This document shows, piece after piece, positions 21,835-38,113 of a DNA stretch of 39,440 bases (within the stretch, counting starts at the first letter, position 1; each line of letters begins with the position of its first letter). Origin of the DNA: Parvularia atlantis. Its lineage: Eukaryota; Opisthokonta; Rotosphaerida. The notes below the pieces were generated by a model. It saw nothing but the letters and a program-made list of their open reading frames with translations, did no database searches and was not told where the DNA came from. The position numbers and the translations under genes are program-made. Where the stretch lies: positions 1 through 39,440 of the forward strand of contig CALSCO010001525.1 in assembly GCA_943704415.1 (NCBI GenBank), read 5' to 3'.

Positions 21835-23354
21835 TTATCGTCGCACTGAGCTCGCCGTCGACGCCGTTCGCGTGACCTGTCGGCAGCGGGCATGAGCGCG
21901 CGCCCGGCCAGCCAGCCGCACGCACCCGTGGCAGCATCGCCGACGGCACGATGCCGCCGTCCCCGTTGATGCTCGCCTCGAAGCTGGTCGACAGCGGCGC
22001 GGTCGTCAGCAGGCTCTCGTACCTGCGCGTGGACGGCATCGGCCGCGGAGCAGGCACGGGGCGCGACGCGGGCGCTTGTGCGGGCGCCTGGGCGGGCGTG
22101 GCCGGCACGGAGAGGTCGTCGTCCGCCCCGTCCTCGCCCACAAAGGGCGTGCAGGCCGAGAGGAAGGCGTCGGTCGACGTGTGCGGGTACGACGCCTGGT
22201 GGTGCGACGCCATGCACAGCAGCCGCCGCCACAGGTCGACGTAGTTGTGCCTGAACGTGCGCGAAAGCGCCATGAACGCCTGGCGCGGGCGTGAGCGGCG
22301 CACACGAGAGAGCGAGCGAGTAAACGCGCGCGCACGACAAAGTTCAGGAAGCCCTGCAACGGGGCGAAAAAGGCAAAGATGATCGCGAGCGGGAAGGTCG
22401 TCTCGGGGTCCATCGTCACGTCGGCAAAGTCGCGCACGAGCGCGAGTACGGCGAGCACCTGCGCACGCTGGTGAGCCGCACCAAGCGCGTGCCGCGCCGG
22501 TATGTCGAGAGCGCACCAGGCTCCAGAACCAGCATAGGATGAACGAGACGACGATGCTCACGAAGATCCGCCGCCGGTCCTCCGAGATGCCGGAGAAGCG
22601 TGGCGTCAGCTTGGAGTAGTTTGCGAGCTTGCGGAACTCGCTGGCGCGCACGTCAAGCAGGAGGCACGCACAAAGGCGCGCCGCACCGGCGCAGCAGCAC
22701 GAGCAGCAGCACGTTGGTGCACCACGAGAAGAAGATCCAGCCGTCGAAGAAGACGATGCGCGCCCACGACGCCGTGAACCAGCACCCGACCTCGTGCTCG
22801 ATCACCGTCTCCGAGTACAGCCCGAGCCCGATCGGCACAGCCACGCACACGGCCGGGACGAGCGTGCACACGGCGAGGTAGCCGAGCTCGTACACGCGGC
22901 CGCGCGCCTCGTTCCGCCGCACCTCCTGCAGCATCGCGAGCCCGCTGGCCGCGCACGCGCGCACGTCAGATCACGGCGCGGGCGTTGTTGGCACGACGCA
23001 CATGCAGCAAGACCAGAAGAACGTGGAGACGTAGAAGAACGTCTGGGTGGCGCGCGGCGTGAGCGCATCGCAGCGGCGCCGCACCGCGCGCACCGAGAGC
23101 ACCGCGCCCGACACGCACAGCGGCACGGACGGGTCCGGCACGTTGGTGAACCATGCTGCCGAGCCGCCGAGCATGAACAGGCTCATGTACGTGACCAGTT
23201 TGAGGAAGAACGAGCGGTCACCGGGTACGAGCGCGTAGTACGCGATAAGGCTGAGCTCGCCCGCGATCGACAGGCTCGCCGACGTCCACATGAGCGGCAG
23301 GTACACGCTCGCGTACAGCGTCCAGCCGTCGTTTTCGGCGGACCCCCTTGCCAT
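21835..23354 (-). CDS. Class E / cAMP-receptor-like 7TM receptor
   Basis: A seven-helix receptor resembling Dictyostelium cAMP-receptor-like proteins. From ATG 23354 (MARGSAENDGW) the helices are TSASLSIAGELSLIAYYAL, KLVTYMSLFMLGGSAAWF, TFFYVSTFFWSCCMCVV, GYLAVCTLVPAVCVAVPIGL, ARIVFFDGWIFFSWCTNV, RRIFVSIVVSFILCWFWSLV and FPLAIIFAFFAPLQGFLNFV. A CWFT motif in the second outer loop could pair with the TM3 Cys. The cytoplasmic tail of about 110 residues is rich in Ser/Thr/Pro/Ala. An intron near 21894-21942 (GTGCGTGCGG to CCGACAG) yields a natural end SSVRR-TAA. Without it, the frame would run antisense into the PQ-loop gene. The ligand is unknown. Confidence 0.8.
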
Positions 23355-23488: not shown

Positions 23489-24488
23489 ATGCTCTCGCTC
23501 AAGTGCGTGTTTGTCGGCGACGTGGGCGCGGGCAAGACGAGCCTGACCATGGTGCTGGTGCGGCGCCCCACAACACGCCCGGCGGCTGAAACCGCCGTCT
23601 CACGCGCGCGACGTGCAGAACGGCGCCCCGTTCGACCCGAACGCGTTCGTGCCCACCGTCGCGGACAACTGGGCGGTGATGCGCATGCACCGCGGCGTGC
23701 CCGCGCAGCTCGGGCTGTGGGACGTGAACGCCCGCGAGGAGTACGACCGCCTGCGCCCGCTCTCGTACCCGCAGACGGACGTGTTTGCGCTCTGCTTCGA
23801 CGTCACGCGGCCACACGCGCTGCAGCAGATCCGCGACAAGTGGCACCACGAGGTGCAGCACCACTGCCCGGGTGTGCCCGTCGTCCTCGTCGGCACCAAG
23901 AGCGACCTGCTCGAGTCTCAGGCCGACGCCGACGCCCTCGCCAGCGGCGCAGAGCGCGACCGAACGTGGGCCCTCGCTGCGGCCTGGCGCGAGCGCCAGC
24001 GCGAGATCGGCCGCCAGCACCTGCTGTGGCGCGTGCGCCACGTCTGGCCGCTGCTGCGCCACGTCAGCCCGCGCGTCCCGCCCAAGGACGGCCAGTGCCG
24101 CCTCGACGGCCTGTGCGACGAGCTCGTCCTGCACATCCTTGGCTATCTCGACACGCCCGACCTCGGCCGCGTGGCGCGCGTCAACCGGCGGCTGCGCGAG
24201 CTCGCCGGCGACCGCGCGCTTTGGCCCGCGTGGCGCTACAAGCGCGGGCAGGTCGCCGGGCGGATCAGCGAGATTACGCCGTACACCGTGCAGGAGGTCG
24301 CGCGGAAGATCGGCGCGCGCGCGACGGTCATCACCAGCGCGACGGAGCCGGCGCTGGTTGTCGAGACGCTCTCGACGGCGCTGCTCGACGCGACCATGGA
24401 CCACTCGCCGTCGATCCACCGCCTCACGCTGCAGAACAAGCGCGGCCCGCGGCTCGTGCGGCGTGTGCGACGTGCGCTGCGCCTGTGA
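23489..24488 (+). CDS. Atypical Rho-family GTPase fused to an F-box
   Basis: Two exons (23489-23557, 23619-24488) give about 312 residues. Residues 1-140 are clearly Rac/Rho: KCVFVGDVGAGKTSLT, FVPTVADNW (switch I Thr kept), WDVNAREEYDRLRPLSYPQT, WHHEVQHHCPGVPVVLVGTK and SDL. Numbered against Rac1, Gly12 is Val, Ala59-Gly60-Gln61 is Asn-Ala-Arg, and the G5 SAL motif is not recognisable. At about residue 205 a canonical F-box begins (DGLCDELVLHILGYLDTPDL, then RVNRRLRELA and LWPAWR). The last 80 residues are of unknown fold and end in a basic tail without CAAX. Known family facts: F-boxes bind Skp1 of SCF ubiquitin ligases, and Gly12/Gln61 changes block GTP hydrolysis in Ras-like proteins. I infer a GTP-locked or inactive switch that recruits an SCF ligase, analogous to RhoBTB with Cul3. 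A short 3' intron near 24460 would change the last residues. Confidence 0.88.
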
Positions 24489-24576
24489 ACTGCGCGAGCG
24501 CCTGTAATTGTACGCTTGCTCCCTTGCTGAACATGCCCGATCCAATGCCACAAGCCCTGCATGCCGCGCTGCGCGC

Positions 24577-26669
24577 TCACTCAAACTTGATGCCCTGCGC
24601 CAGCGGCAGCTTGCGCGAGTGGTTGATGACCCTGCGCGCGAGCACGGTCAGCACGGGTTATCTCGCGCGCGTGCGCACGCACACGGTGGACTGGCGGCAG
24701 TAGTACTTCCACGCGTCCGAGCCGCTCTCACGACCCCAGCCGGTCTCCTTGTTGCCGCCAAACGCGCCGCCGATCTCCGCGCCCGACGTGGCCTGGTTGA
24801 CCGAGACGATGCCGCAGTCGGAGCCGGCCGGCCTTGGGGCGTGCGCGCGTGCGGCGTGAGCGCAGACAGCGACAGCGACGGCCGCCGCGCCACGCACCCA
24901 ATCCAGCGAAAGATAGCCTCGGGGCTCTGCGTGAACAGCGCCGACGACAGGCCCTGCGCCACCTCGTTGTTCCAGGCGATGGCCCGGTCGAGCGAGCTGA
25001 ACTTCATCGTGTGCAGGATGGGCTGTGTGTGCGTCAGCGCCGCACGACGTCCGCCCACGCAGTGCCACGCACCACAAACGTCTCGCGGTGCACGAGCGGG
25101 CAGTCGTGCTCCATTTGCGTCAGTGTCGGGCGCACAAAGTTGCCCTTGCCCGGCAGGACCTCGCCGCCGCAGAGCACCTGGCCGCCCTGCTTGGGCACCT
25201 CGGCCACGGCCTTGGCGTACTCCTCGACCGCGCGCGGCGTGTGCAGCGGGCCGCAGAGCGTGCCGGGCGTGAGCGGGTCGCCGATGCGCACGGTGGCGTA
25301 GGCTTTCTTGAGCCGCTCGATCACGGTGTCGTACAGCTTCTCGTGGATCATCTAGGCGCGGGCACTGCCCGTCAGCCCGCAGCGAGCCGCCAGCGCCGCT
25401 CGCACGCGTGCACGCACCAGCCGGCGCGCCGACGTGCACCGCTGCCCGGCCGTACCGACGGCCGCGAAGAGCACGCTGCGCACGACCATGTCCACGTCGG
25501 CGTCGTCGTTGACGATGATGGCGTTGTTGCCGCCGAGCTCCATCAGAGCCTTGCCTGCGCCCGCGGTGAGCACGCACTGTGCACATGCCCCTCGCCACCC
25601 GCCGCGCACCAAACCGGCCCTGGACGGTCGTGGCCACCTGCCGGCCGACGTGCGTGCTGCGGGCACAAGGCGGGAGTCAACGACGACCACGGCCCGCGCC
25701 AGCGCCTGCGCACACACACCTGCCCGTGAATGACACGAGCGGGATGCGCTTGTCGCCCGCGATCGCCGCGCCGACGTCCGCGCCGCCCGTCACGAGCGAG
25801 CAGATGGCGCCGGGCAGGTTGTTGGCCTCGAGCACGCTCGCGAGGATCTTGGTCACGGCGACGCTGACCAGGTTCGTCGTCGGGGCGCCCTTCCTGCGAC
25901 ACACACGCACGCACGAACGCGCGCGTCAGCACGACCGGCCGCAGCCCGGCATGCGGGCAGGGGCGCGCACCAGAGCATGGTGTCGCCGCAGACGAGCGCG
26001 AGCGCGTTGTTCCAGCCGTAGACGGCCACGGGGAAGTTGAAGGCACTGATGACGCCGACGTGGCCGAGCGGGTGCCAGCGCTCCATCATCGTGTGCTCCT
26101 CGCGCTCGGACGGGATCACCTTGCCGTTGAGCATGCGGCTAAGGCCGGCGGCGTAGTCGGCGATGTCGATGTACTCCTGCACCTCACCCAGGCCCTCGGG
26201 CTCGATCTTGCCCATCTCGAGCGACACGAGCCGGCCGAGGGCCGTCTTGCGCGCGCGCAGGGCGTCGCCAATCTGCCGCACGACCTCGCCGCGCTGCGGC
26301 GCCGGCATCGCGGCCCAGCGCGCGCGCGCGGCCTCCATCGCCTGCACGGTCTCGTCGTAGTCGGCCAGCGAGCCGGTTGTGACGGCGGCGATGGGCTCGT
26401 GCGTGGCCGGGTTGACCGAGACCACGCGCGGGCCGCGCCCGCCCCACCGGCCGTTGTACACGCCCGCGTTCTCACGCTCGAGGCCGAGCTCGCGCAGGAA
26501 CGGGTACTTGTCGAACGCGAGCTGCGGCCGCGGCGCAGCACGGGCGAGGTGCGACGCGTGAGACGTAGCGCAGCGACAACGTGTGAGGCGCACGCACCTC
26601 CGACGCCGCCGTCGACAGGCAGCGCGCGCCGCCGCGCCGCGTGGCAAACCGCGCCGAGGCGAGCAGCAT
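24577..26669 (-). CDS. ALDH7A1: Alpha-aminoadipic semialdehyde dehydrogenase (antiquitin)
   Basis: An NAD-dependent aldehyde dehydrogenase of lysine breakdown, mitochondrial or cytosolic. The start at 26669 gives a short Arg/Ala/Ser-rich presequence ([20 protein letters not shown]), consistent with mitochondrial import. Family blocks are [61 protein letters not shown] (catalytic Glu), [10 protein letters not shown] (catalytic Cys), [45 protein letters not shown] and [20 protein letters not shown]. The C-terminus is [10 protein letters not shown]. The YGWNNAL, FGGNK and LPLAQGI strings are specific for ALDH7. Eight or so short introns are present. The start is 33 bp from the divergent start of the next gene. 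Confidence 0.95.
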
Positions 26670-26702
26670 GGTTCGAGTTTCGAAGAGTGTGACGGGCGCG
26701 TG

Positions 26703-29447
26703 ATGCGGGCGCTGGCCATCATGGCCGCGTGCTGTGTCGCGGCGGCCGCAACGCCGCCGCCGCACCAGCAGCACCACCAGCCGCCCGCGCCGCCACTGCA
26801 GCCGCTGCGCCGCGTGACCGTGCCCGTGCGGCTCAACGTCGTGCTCGTGGGCTTCGAGAGCGCGCTCGCGGACCAGGCGCTGCTCGCGCCGTACCTCGAG
26901 GACGTCGAGACGCGCCTGCCGCACGCCTTTGTCGACGGCGGGGCGTCGGACGCGGTCGAGTACGCCTACGCGGTGCACGTGGTGCCACTCAGCCACACCG
27001 TCACGAAGCTGTTCGAGGCCGTCATCTCGACCTTTGTGCGCGCCGACAACGCGACGGCGTCGGGCGCGCATTACCAGGTCGACGTCGACCGCATCCTGCC
27101 CGTGGCCGAGTCGCTCGTGCACCGCCTGGGCCTGCACGACGCCTACACGCTCCTGCTCCTCAACTGCCCCAAGGGCCTGCGCGCCGACCTGCGCTACGGC
27201 TACCGCGCGGGCTTCTCGGCCGACGAGCTGCGACAGATCGCGACTTCGGACGACCTGCGCAAGATTGTGCTGCAGATCAACACCGCCGCCGACAAGAACC
27301 GGCCCGGCGGCCCGGGCGGCCCGGGCGACGCCGGCGGCATGCCTGCGCACGACGAGGACGCCGAGGCCGCCCTGCCCGACGAGGCGTCGCGTCCGCTCCC
27401 GCGCGGACCCGGCGTCGTGTTTGAGGACATGGTGGCGCAGGCCGACGCGTGGGCGCGCGCGTTCCTCGCCGAGACGCGCCAGCTGCTCGCGCGCCAGGAT
27501 GCGCCCGGAAACGTGCCCGCGGAGGACTGCGCGCGGCCGATGACGGTGCTGCTGCAGGACCCGGACGGCGACCACAGCCATGCCGTCAACATGAAGCCCG
27601 CGCTCACGCTGGCCGAGGCCGCCGAGGCCGCCATCGCCGTCGGCCATCCGAGCGACGCCGCGGCGCTGCGCCTGGCCGCGCAGGGCGGCGTGGTGCACGC
27701 GGGCTGCGTCGTCGGCAGCTGGGTCGGCCACGGCCGAACGGCGTTCATCGACCTGGCCGCGGGCCCGTTCTCGTGGGGCACGACGGCCACGGGCAAGGGC
27801 GCGCTCGTCGACACGGCCGCGGTGTACCCGGGCGCGCGCGACACGGTGGCGCAGGCGACGCGGCGGTACCGGACGCGCGCGCTGCTGCAGGCCGGCGACA
27901 CGGACGACGACACGTTTGACGACGGCGGAGCGAGCGCGGACGCGGGGCGCAGCCGCAGCATCGACGCCGAGCTGCGCATCTACGAGGCCTTCCTCGCGCG
28001 CAATTGCGATCCTGAGAACCTGCCGCAGGGCGAGGCGGGGCAGCGGCTGACGCGCGCGTGCGAGGAGACGCGCGTGCGCATGGCGCGGCTCGAGGCGCGC
28101 CGGGCCGAGCGGCCAGTGGCGCCAGGGGGCGGGCTGCTGTCGGACGTGGTCGAGGAGGAGGAGGCGCCGGCGGGTGCAGCGGACGCGGACGCGCCCGAGC
28201 GGTATCCGCCGGCGGCGTACGAGGAGTTTGGCGCGCGGCTGGGCAGCGTCATCTCGCGCACGCTGCGCACGCTCGTGACGCCCCCGACGGCGCGGTCGTC
28301 GCTGGACCTGCGCGGCCTGGCCAAGCGCGTGTCGTTCCGGGTCGTGGTCGTGACCAACCACCACAAGGCGTACCGGCACCTGGGCGCGGCCGCGGGCGGA
28401 TTTGACTATGACCTGTTCCGGACGGAGATGGACAAGCTCTGCCTGCCGGGCCACGCGTTTGCGTACACGCTGCAGGAGGTCGCGCTGACGGACGAGTCGC
28501 GGCTGGCGATGGTCTACTGGGACGCGCTGCACACGGCCGTCACTGGCGCAGGCGGGCAGGGCACGCGGATGTACCTCGACTCGGAGCACTTGCACCGGCA
28601 GCTCCTGGGCGACGACGGCGTGACTGAGGCCTCGGTCACGCCCGACGGGCTCCTGTCGCGCGTGCTCGTGTTCATCTTCGTGGTCGACTACGAGTTGCCG
28701 GTGCTGATCGACCTGTACCAGCAGGCGGCCGTGATCGACAACGCCGTCGTGGCCGTGCAGCACGGCCTGCAGACGTTCCGCACGCGCGACCAGTGCAACG
28801 GCCAGCCCGTCGCCGTTAGCCTGCGCAACCCGACCAAGGCCGTCATCGCCGCCGCGGCCGAGATCGTCGGCGGGCTCGCGGCCCCGCGCGACCGCCTGTG
28901 GTCGGTCGGCGCCGCGCCACTGCAGGCCACGTCGCCACGCGCGCGGCACGGCGCGTTTGACGTCGACACGGCGCACCGGCACTGGCTCACCGTGCGCATG
29001 GACCGGATCAAAGGCGCGCTCGACACGGTGCTGGCGCGGCTGCGCGGCGAGACGTCGGTGCACGTGGCGCGCGAGGTGGAGACGCTGCGTGCGACGTACA
29101 GCGAGGTTGTGCGGGTGCTCGAGGCCGTGGGCGACCACGCGGCGCTGATGGACTATCGGACCGTGTTCCGCCTGCTGTCGACGGCCGAGGACGACGTGCG
29201 GGTGCTGTTCAACGTGACGGCGGCGATGGGCGCGGTGCAGCACGAGGCGCACTGCCGGCACGAGGTCGACCCGGACGAGCAGGCCGCGCAGACCGTGCGC
29301 CTGCTCACGACCATCCTCACGCTCGGGCTCGTCAACGCCGTGCTGCTGCTCGTCTACTACCTGTGCACGTACGCGGGCCCGCTCCCGGCCGCCGTGCGCG
29401 CGACGATGCCCGAGGTGCTGCGGCCGAGCAAGGTGAAGATCAACTGA
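26703..29447 (+). CDS. Intronless type I membrane protein, plant At5g58100-like
   Basis: A single uninterrupted exon of 914 codons. The signal peptide is [17 protein letters not shown] large lumenal/extracellular part follows, with [44 protein letters not shown]+[19 protein letters not shown] and [20 protein letters not shown]. One membrane helix sits near the C-terminus ([20 protein letters not shown]), leaving a short cytosolic tail ending SKVKIN. The FIDL(S/T)AGPFSWG string and the order NVxLVGF ... AFIDL recall a plant family of secretory-pathway membrane proteins typified by Arabidopsis At5g58100 and At3g28720, recalled from memory. The biochemical role is not established. ATG 26703 was chosen because it gives the signal peptide; the frame is also open further upstream. 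The lack of introns is odd beside neighbours with eight to ten. Confidence 0.7.
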
Positions 29448-36556: not shown

Positions 36557-38113
36557 ATGGACAGCATCAGGAAGAAGCTCAGCTCGGCCATGGGCACGCT
36601 CGGGCGCAAGACTGAGAACCCCGTGGAAGCGTGCGTGCGGCGCCGGCTGGGGGACGGGGGACGCTGGGCACGCGCGGGCCGGGCTGTTGTGTCGCCTGAG
36701 AAACAACGTCGCGCACACACGCGGCGGGCCCGCTCACACGCCGCGCCCGCACGCAGGGCCGCGCACCACAAGGACGTGGTCGACATCAAGTTCGCAGACC
36801 TGACGATCAAGAAGACGCTCGGGACGGGGTCGTTTGGGCGGGTGCTGCTTGTGCAGCACAAGGTGCGCGCGACTGCGGCGCGTGCGCATGCGCCAACACG
36901 CCCGCGCGCCGGCCCGAACCCTCCCCGCGACCTCCCGCACCCGCCCGCTGCCCCGCCCACCGCAGGCGAGCAAGAAGCACTACGCGATGAAGATCCTCAA
37001 GAAGGCGCAGGTCGTCAAGCTGAAGCAGGCAAGCGCGAGTCGCACGCGCTCGGGCCGGCCTCGCGGGTTTGACGTGCGCGCACGCGCGCACGCGCAGGTC
37101 GAGCACACGATCAACGAGCGCAACATTCTCAAGATCATCGACAACCCGTTCACCGTCAACCTCATCTCGTCGTTCCAGGACGACGCCAACCTGTTCATGG
37201 TGATGGAATACGTCCCCGGCGGCGAGCTCTTCTCGTACCTGCGGCGGCAGCAAAAGTTCGACCCCGAGACGGCCAAGTTCTACGCGGCCGAGATCGTCAT
37301 CGCGTTCGAGCTCATGCACGCCAAGGACATCCTCTACCGCGACCTCAAGCCCGAGAACGTCCTGCTCGACGCCGAGGGCCACGTCCGGTTAACAGACTTT
37401 GGCTTTGGCAAGGTGCGGCGTGGCGCGGTGGTGGCGCGATGGCGTGGCGTGGCTGCGCTGGCGCGGCGGCGCGGCATGGGGCTGACGACTGACACGAACG
37501 CGCGCGCATGGCAGGAGGTGCCGGATGTGACGTGGACCCTGTGCGGCACACCAGACTACCTCGCACCCGAGATCATCCAGAGCAAGGGCTACGGCAAGGC
37601 CGTCGACTGGTACTCGCTCGGCGTGCTCATCTACGAGATGCTGGCCGGCTACCCGCCCTACGCCGACGACGACCACTTCCGGCTGTACGAGAAGATCCTC
37701 GCGGGCAAGCTCAGGTTCCCGTCCAAGTTCGACCCGGACGTGCGTGCACCCGCCTGCCTGTGCACAGCGCGTGCGCCCTGACGCCACGCGCCGCAGGCCA
37801 AGGACCTGTGCAAGAAGCTCATGACGGCAGACCTGACGCGAAGGTTTGGCAACCTCAAGAACGGGTCCAAGGACATCCGCAACCACAAGTGGTTCGCCAA
37901 CATTGACTGGAAGAAGGCTGTTAAGAAGCAGCTGACACCACCGATCAAACCGGCGGTGCGTGCGCAAGGCCGCGGCGAGCGCGGATGGTGACACATGTGC
38001 AGATCAAAGAGGACGGCGACGCGTCCAACTTTGACGACTACGAGGAGGACAGGGAACCGCTCGGGCTGACGGGCGGGGCCGACCCGTATCGGAGCATGTT
38101 TGCGAGCTTCTGA
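36557..38113 (+). CDS. PKA-C: cAMP-dependent protein kinase catalytic subunit (PKA-C)
   Basis: Seven exons: 36557-36630, 36757-36862, 36966-37028, 37098-37412, 37515-37739, 37797-37955 and 38003-38113. They give 350 residues, the same size as mammalian PKA-C. Motifs: [85 protein letters not shown] (activation-loop Thr kept), [17 protein letters not shown] and NFDDYEED. The C-terminal hydrophobic motif is MFASF, as in FSEF-ending PKA. The third intron is GC-AG. The N-terminus [13 protein letters not shown] lacks the Gly2 needed for myristoylation. With the 7TM receptor of the cAMP-receptor-like class in the same window, cAMP signalling in this organism is very likely. Confidence 0.96.
37029..37097 (+). 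other. GC-AG intron in PKA-C
   Basis: The conserved reading [13 protein letters not shown] requires a join of AAGCAG at 37028 to GTCGAG at 37098. The intron starts GCAAGC and ends GCGCAG (69 nt). CAG|GCAAG is the classic minor GC donor context. Confidence 0.88.

Follow-up and report, generated by a model that had tools for sequence, protein, structure and literature searches.

A Rho GTPase/F-box protein of Parvularia atlantis whose F-box most likely interrupts the G domain

The RhoBTB proteins already link Rho GTPases to Cul3 ubiquitin ligases. RhoBTB1, RhoBTB2 and the Dictyostelium protein RacA combine a Rho domain with two C-terminal BTB domains for docking to Cul3; passages of two papers on these proteins describe RhoBTB1/2 as having Asn in place of Gly12 together with a long Rho insert and RhoBTB2 as binding GTP (PMC4931677), and describe RacA and RhoBTB1/2 as lacking a CAAX box (PMC8305917). 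We analyzed a gene of Parvularia atlantis found on the forward strand at positions 23489-24488 of a 39,440-nucleotide stretch of DNA (contig CALSCO010001525.1 of assembly GCA_943704415.1), this whole stretch being referred to as the window. The product of the gene, referred to as the window protein, contains a Rac/Cdc42-like GTPase domain and an F-box. RhoBTB is the nearest known kind of protein, sharing with the window protein an atypical Rac-group G domain and a cullin-ligase docking domain in one chain, a feature also of RacA, as well as the lack of a CAAX box, a substitution at the Gly12 position and an enlarged Rho insert, as far as these passages describe them (PMC4931677, PMC8305917). 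The window protein differs from RhoBTB in that the docking domain is an F-box (Skp1/Cul1) rather than BTB (Cul3) and most likely lies within the G domain rather than C-terminal to it; it also reads DVNAR in switch II and gave no BTB match up to E 1 in a Pfam scan. Membership in the RhoBTB group, suggested by a resemblance of the linker to the one that follows the Rho domain in RhoBTB, was rejected because no BTB was found.

We consider it fairly probable that the gene is a member of a conserved type, a Rac/Cdc42-like GTPase with a G domain interrupted by a helix and an F-box, which would place a Rho head on a Skp1-Cul1-F-box (SCF) ligase. The fusion, the substitutions and the two-domain design in three relatives make up the observed part of this reading.

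Gene structure and conservation of the two domains

Both domains of the window protein scored above their Pfam cut-offs, consistent with a first-pass annotation of the locus that had read a Rho GTPase and an F-box in one protein. The Ras-family domain PF00071 was found at residues 5-124 (83.3 bits, cut-off 21.6), and the F-box, beginning DGLCDELVLHILGYLDTPDLGRVARV, at residues 186-225 (positions 24105-24224; PF00646, 30.3 bits, cut-off 20.5; PF12937, 40.9 bits, cut-off 24.3). The best sequence matches in the PDB were Rac1 and Cdc42, covering residues 2 to about 128-139 and led by Rac1 (E 1.1e-39, residues 2-128), and Rho-type database proteins among the matches listed were 39-55% identical over 38-59% of the window protein. 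Compared to Rac1/Cdc42, the window protein has about 110-120 extra residues that include the F-box, lacks a CAAX box, and carries Val12 and the switch residues Asn-Ala-Arg. The F-box in turn gave weak sequence matches to those of Skp2 (E 0.0036) and FBXW7 (E 0.012). Leucine-rich repeats and WD40 are the usual substrate-binding partner domains of F-box proteins; here a Rho domain, most likely surrounding the F-box, takes their place, and the F-box starts with LC instead of LP. A canonical Cdc42 gene was also noted (locus L013, G000:C50:10178-10647), one exon of which is 91-92% identical over 100 amino acids to chytrid Cdc42, the best of 234 proteins compared; this hints at an opisthokont that may be close to fungi.

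The gene consists of two exons that together encode 312 amino acids. Exon 1 (23489-23557) contains the start codon, beta1 and the P-loop, and exon 2 (23619-24488) contains switch I, beta2 to G4, the linker helix, the F-box, the resumed G domain, the basic tail and the stop codon. The initial 23 residues are in another frame than the rest, and continuity is restored by an inferred GT..AG intron of 61 nucleotides (23558-23618, GTGCGG...GTGCAG). An alternative donor at 23552 would give a 67-nucleotide intron and a 310-amino-acid product; the donor at 23558 was chosen based on the Ras-family Pfam score (83.3 bits compared to 78.2 bits). Exon 2 is a single unbroken open frame from switch I through the stop, with a GC content of 76%, 48.4% and 94.8% at codon positions 1, 2 and 3, respectively.

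Protein searches, from which we examined the best 120 of 482 matches for the window protein as query and the best 120 of 5552 for its relative P0002, revealed three other proteins with the same two domains among the matches listed. These are P0002 (345 amino acids), P0133 (283 amino acids) and P0139 (301 amino acids), whose identity to the window protein is 38%, 34% and 33%, respectively. Both domains occurred together in 1/120 and 3/120 matches, P0002 being present in both sets, in the second as the query itself. The Ras domain and the F-box (PF00646, PF12937) are above the Pfam cut-offs in all three relatives, so that an F-box is found in four of four proteins, and at the same position in each. 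The linker preceding the F-box (23949-24065; W..AA.W....E..R.H..W..R.VWPLLR), a helix in the predicted models, is clearly common to the window protein and P0002 and less so to P0133 and P0139. The presence of both domains in these relatives shows that the two-domain fusion is conserved.

A potential concern is that adjoining Rho and F-box genes were read as one through an error of the gene model or the assembly. In line with this, exon 1 can be joined to the rest only through an inferred intron. On the other hand, one open exon spans switch I to the stop, and the same order of parts is found in three proteins of 283-345 amino acids from other sources. Based on this single frame and the agreement of the three relatives, we rejected such an artefact as extremely improbable.

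The 16.25-Mb assembly (616 contigs), that of a eukaryote as judged from its predicted introns, cullins and Skp1, was also searched for other loci. A search with P0139 gave eight matches, of which the window gene was one and a lone F-box another, and no further Rho/F-box locus was detected by it. When residues 136-312 alone served as the query, no match was obtained up to E 10, not even P0002, and this search is hence uninformative on absence. A giant-virus origin was rejected as well: a scan of viral contigs with alignment A2 gave no relative, and none of 137 pattern-matched stretches was confirmed, both patterns being derived from the Rho part.

Position of the F-box relative to the G domain

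The F-box had been described as directly following the G domain, with the G5 motif lost. Our analysis suggests instead that the F-box most likely interrupts the G domain, at a site close to the Rho insert, and that G5 has probably been displaced past the F-box; both proposals draw on the relatives and on structure prediction, and weakly on the window sequence. A Rho G5 was recognized after the F-box in two of the three relatives, with no shuffled sequence scoring as well (0/2000 for P0139 and 0/2000 for P0002), and a MAFFT alignment also puts G5-alpha5 after the F-box. In the predicted structures the Rho fold is able to close across the F-box, as seen in the fold of P0139. Because G5 follows the F-box in two of three relatives and the fold closes across the F-box in the models, the F-box is most likely nested. 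In the window protein the resumed G domain would correspond to positions 24273-24404 and contain alpha4, beta6 with G5 (Thr-Ser-Ala-Thr; Rho consensus SA[KL]), and alpha5. Alignment A2 places the displaced G5 at about 24333-24344, other alignments being one residue off, so that its register is uncertain. Among the structural matches listed is PDB 5hzh (chain residues 3..327), an engineered, photoinhibitable Rac1 that holds a whole foreign domain, LOV2.

Several observations weigh against this arrangement or against its proposed use. The region after the F-box in the window protein is a weak Rho match (equalled in 17/2000 and 39/1000 shuffles), and the region before the F-box scores about equally (41/1000). 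P0133 fails the G5 shuffle tests (785/2000 and 330/1000), a hidden Markov model (HMM) of the three relatives' C-termini fails to recognize the window tail (511/2000), and a full Rho HMM gave no second match in the window protein or P0133. The model of the window protein is poor, with a mean predicted local distance difference test (pLDDT) score of 56 and a predicted template modelling (pTM) score of 0.41, and the Foldseek alignments listed for it span 88-111 columns only. The F-box parts have low confidence in both models, and the alignments given to AlphaFold had already placed the Rac G5 after the F-box. No F-box fold was present among the structural matches listed, these being filled by Rho and other GTPase structures, and the F-box was not modelled separately. 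With regard to individual motifs, G4 is TKAD in P0002 and deviates from TKxD in P0133 (LQND) and P0139 (LQSD). The Leu-Pro pair with which an F-box starts is important for Skp1 binding; the window protein has LC where three of three relatives have LP, and from this difference its binding to Skp1 may be weaker.

An alternative is an end-to-end fusion, in which the Rho domain is cut off after G4 and followed by the F-box and an unrelated tail, G5 being truly lost. Such a structure is consistent with the Pfam Ras matches, which in each of the four proteins end at profile positions 116-120 of 162, with the failure of the relatives' HMM on the window tail, and with the Foldseek matches listed, which do not extend beyond the first part of the window model. 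It does not account for the G5-alpha5 that follows the F-box in P0139 and P0002, in the alignment and in the P0139 fold, and a core strand would be missing from a G domain that lacked beta6 and G5. We regard an end-to-end fusion as unlikely. In place of the loss claimed earlier, G5 has most likely been displaced, with the reservation that the window protein's own sequence contributes weakly and the test with the relatives' C-terminal HMM was negative.

Substitutions in the GTPase switches

The window protein carries substitutions at positions central to the GTPase cycle. The P-loop GDVGAGKT (23516-23539) conforms to the G1 consensus GxxxxGK[ST] but has Val at the Gly12 position, and G3 (23721-23735, within WDVNAREEY, which begins at 23718) reads Asp-Val-Asn-Ala-Arg in place of the consensus Asp-Thr-Ala-Gly-Gln. 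Alignment to Rac1 and inspection of the codons confirmed both readings, as first annotated, although the alignment is not gapless as had been claimed, one extra residue being present in switch I. Relative to Rac1, Gly12 is changed to Val, Thr58-Ala59-Gly60-Gln61 to Val-Asn-Ala-Arg, Phe37 to Ala and Tyr40 to Trp; Thr35 of switch I, GKT, and G4 (TKSD, 23895-23906, conforming to TKxD) are retained. The Val-Asn-Ala-Arg codons are GTG AAC GCC CGC, and three of the four are at least two bases from every codon of the consensus residue. In the same genome, with 30 GTPase loci including the window gene, G3 could be read at 11 other distinct loci by a simple pattern that allows other residues, and ends in AGQ at all 11; the other loci either did not match the G3 pattern or duplicated those counted. 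These multi-base differences and the uniformity of the other loci make a sequencing error unlikely.

The substitutions are not a family trait. DTAGQ is present in 3/3 relatives and Gly12 in both that are readable (P0133 and P0139); P0002 lacks the start of the P-loop, possibly owing to a gene model that runs into an intron. The window protein is thus the derived member, alone among the four with V12/NAR and with LC in the F-box. The beta2-beta3 hairpin before DTAGQ is shortened in the relatives and has full Rac length in the window protein; the head that otherwise resembles Rac more closely is the one with the more degenerate switch.

The substitutions G12V and Q61R block GTP hydrolysis in Ras-like proteins, and on this basis a non-cycling GTPase arm on an SCF ligase had been proposed. 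The G60A change argues against a simple GTP-locked active state. In H-Ras, G60A is described in passages of two papers as favoring the inactive state 1, with impaired GTPase activity (PMC4867591), and state-1 mutants such as G60A as defective in effector recognition (PMC3280954). Given this shift of H-Ras towards state 1, the term constitutively active is unwarranted for the window protein; its head is probably non-cycling and in a fixed state, which is the safer description.

The same data raise the question of whether the gene encodes a pseudo-GTPase or is a decaying copy, with a Rho head that is no working switch or a gene in the process of being lost. The accumulated changes (G12V, T58V, A59N, G60A, Q61R, F37A, Y40W and the LC of the F-box), while the relatives keep DTAGQ and LP, agree with this, as does the lack of a second fused gene in the genome by the P0139 search. 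Against decay, the frame is open, G4, GKT and the switch-I Thr are intact, the coding signal is strong (GC3 0.95), and the F-box is still above cut-off; RhoBTB2, a head with a Gly12 substitution, is moreover described as binding GTP in the pertinent passage of PMC4931677. We consider this explanation possible but somewhat unlikely. It overlaps with the nested arrangement, into which a fixed-state head on an SCF ligase also fits, so the two are not exclusive.

Proposed function and genomic surroundings

In the arrangement we favor, a long helix and the F-box would replace the Rho insert between G4 (TKxD) and alpha4/G5, and the Rho fold is predicted to close around the insertion from both of its halves, such that the F-box projects where Rho proteins bear the insert helix. 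The F-box would dock Skp1 and recruit Cul1, with the Rho head picking partners or targets as the recruiting part of the ligase. Where the switches are normal, what is recruited could depend on the nucleotide state; the window member, in which residues needed for hydrolysis and switching are replaced (G12V, T58V, A59N, G60A, Q61R), would provide a fixed-state, non-cycling head. The C-terminal tail (24432-24485) is basic, with Lys/Arg at 8/18 residues (5-6/18 in the three relatives), and may hold the protein at membranes. No Cys is present among the last six residues in any of the four proteins, in agreement with the earlier statement that a CAAX box is missing. A search of the genome gave a single match to Skp1 as well as strong matches to cullins, the latter on four contigs, making an SCF link the natural reading, and the window protein likely serves as an SCF adaptor headed by a Rho domain. 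More tentatively, and with less confidence than the arrangement itself, the proteins may form a family of GTPase-gated SCF receptors, in which an F-box in the Rho insert has its pose or access set by the nucleotide state and couples Rho signalling to assembly of the Cul1 ligase; the window version would then be locked by natural G12V, G60A and Q61R.

The combination of Rho and F-box is apparently undescribed so far. As the first-pass annotation had supposed, no Rho/F-box protein was found in titles and the starts of abstracts among the papers listed for F-box with Rho or GTPase terms, subscription papers and preprints being outside this scope. The words GTPase, Ras, Rac and Rho are absent as whole words from the main text of a paper on Dictyostelium F-box proteins (PMC9485057), and the term GTPase is absent from a ubiquitin paper (PMC2691004). 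The window gene may thus represent a further form of Rho/ubiquitin-ligase adaptor, RhoBTB being the known form. A link of Rho to Skp1/Cul1 by nesting of the adaptor in the G domain, if true, would mean that evolution has tied the state of small GTPases to protein degradation at least twice, the second time along a different path. A family that has both normal-switch members and one with a dead switch would also allow a natural comparison, bearing on the contribution of the GTPase cycle to a ligase adaptor.

The gene is flanked on the minus strand by a candidate multi-pass membrane protein (22500-23354, divergent), which by eye may be a G-protein-coupled receptor of the cyclic AMP-receptor type, and by a candidate aldehyde dehydrogenase gene split by introns (24570-26720, convergent; by eye). 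On the plus strand of the window, an open frame of 914 amino acids (26703-29447) matches no domain but DUF7906, and that over a short stretch (46 bits), and a protein kinase domain (PF00069, 172 bits) is found at 36888-37781, where one intron may, by eye, start with GC instead of GT.
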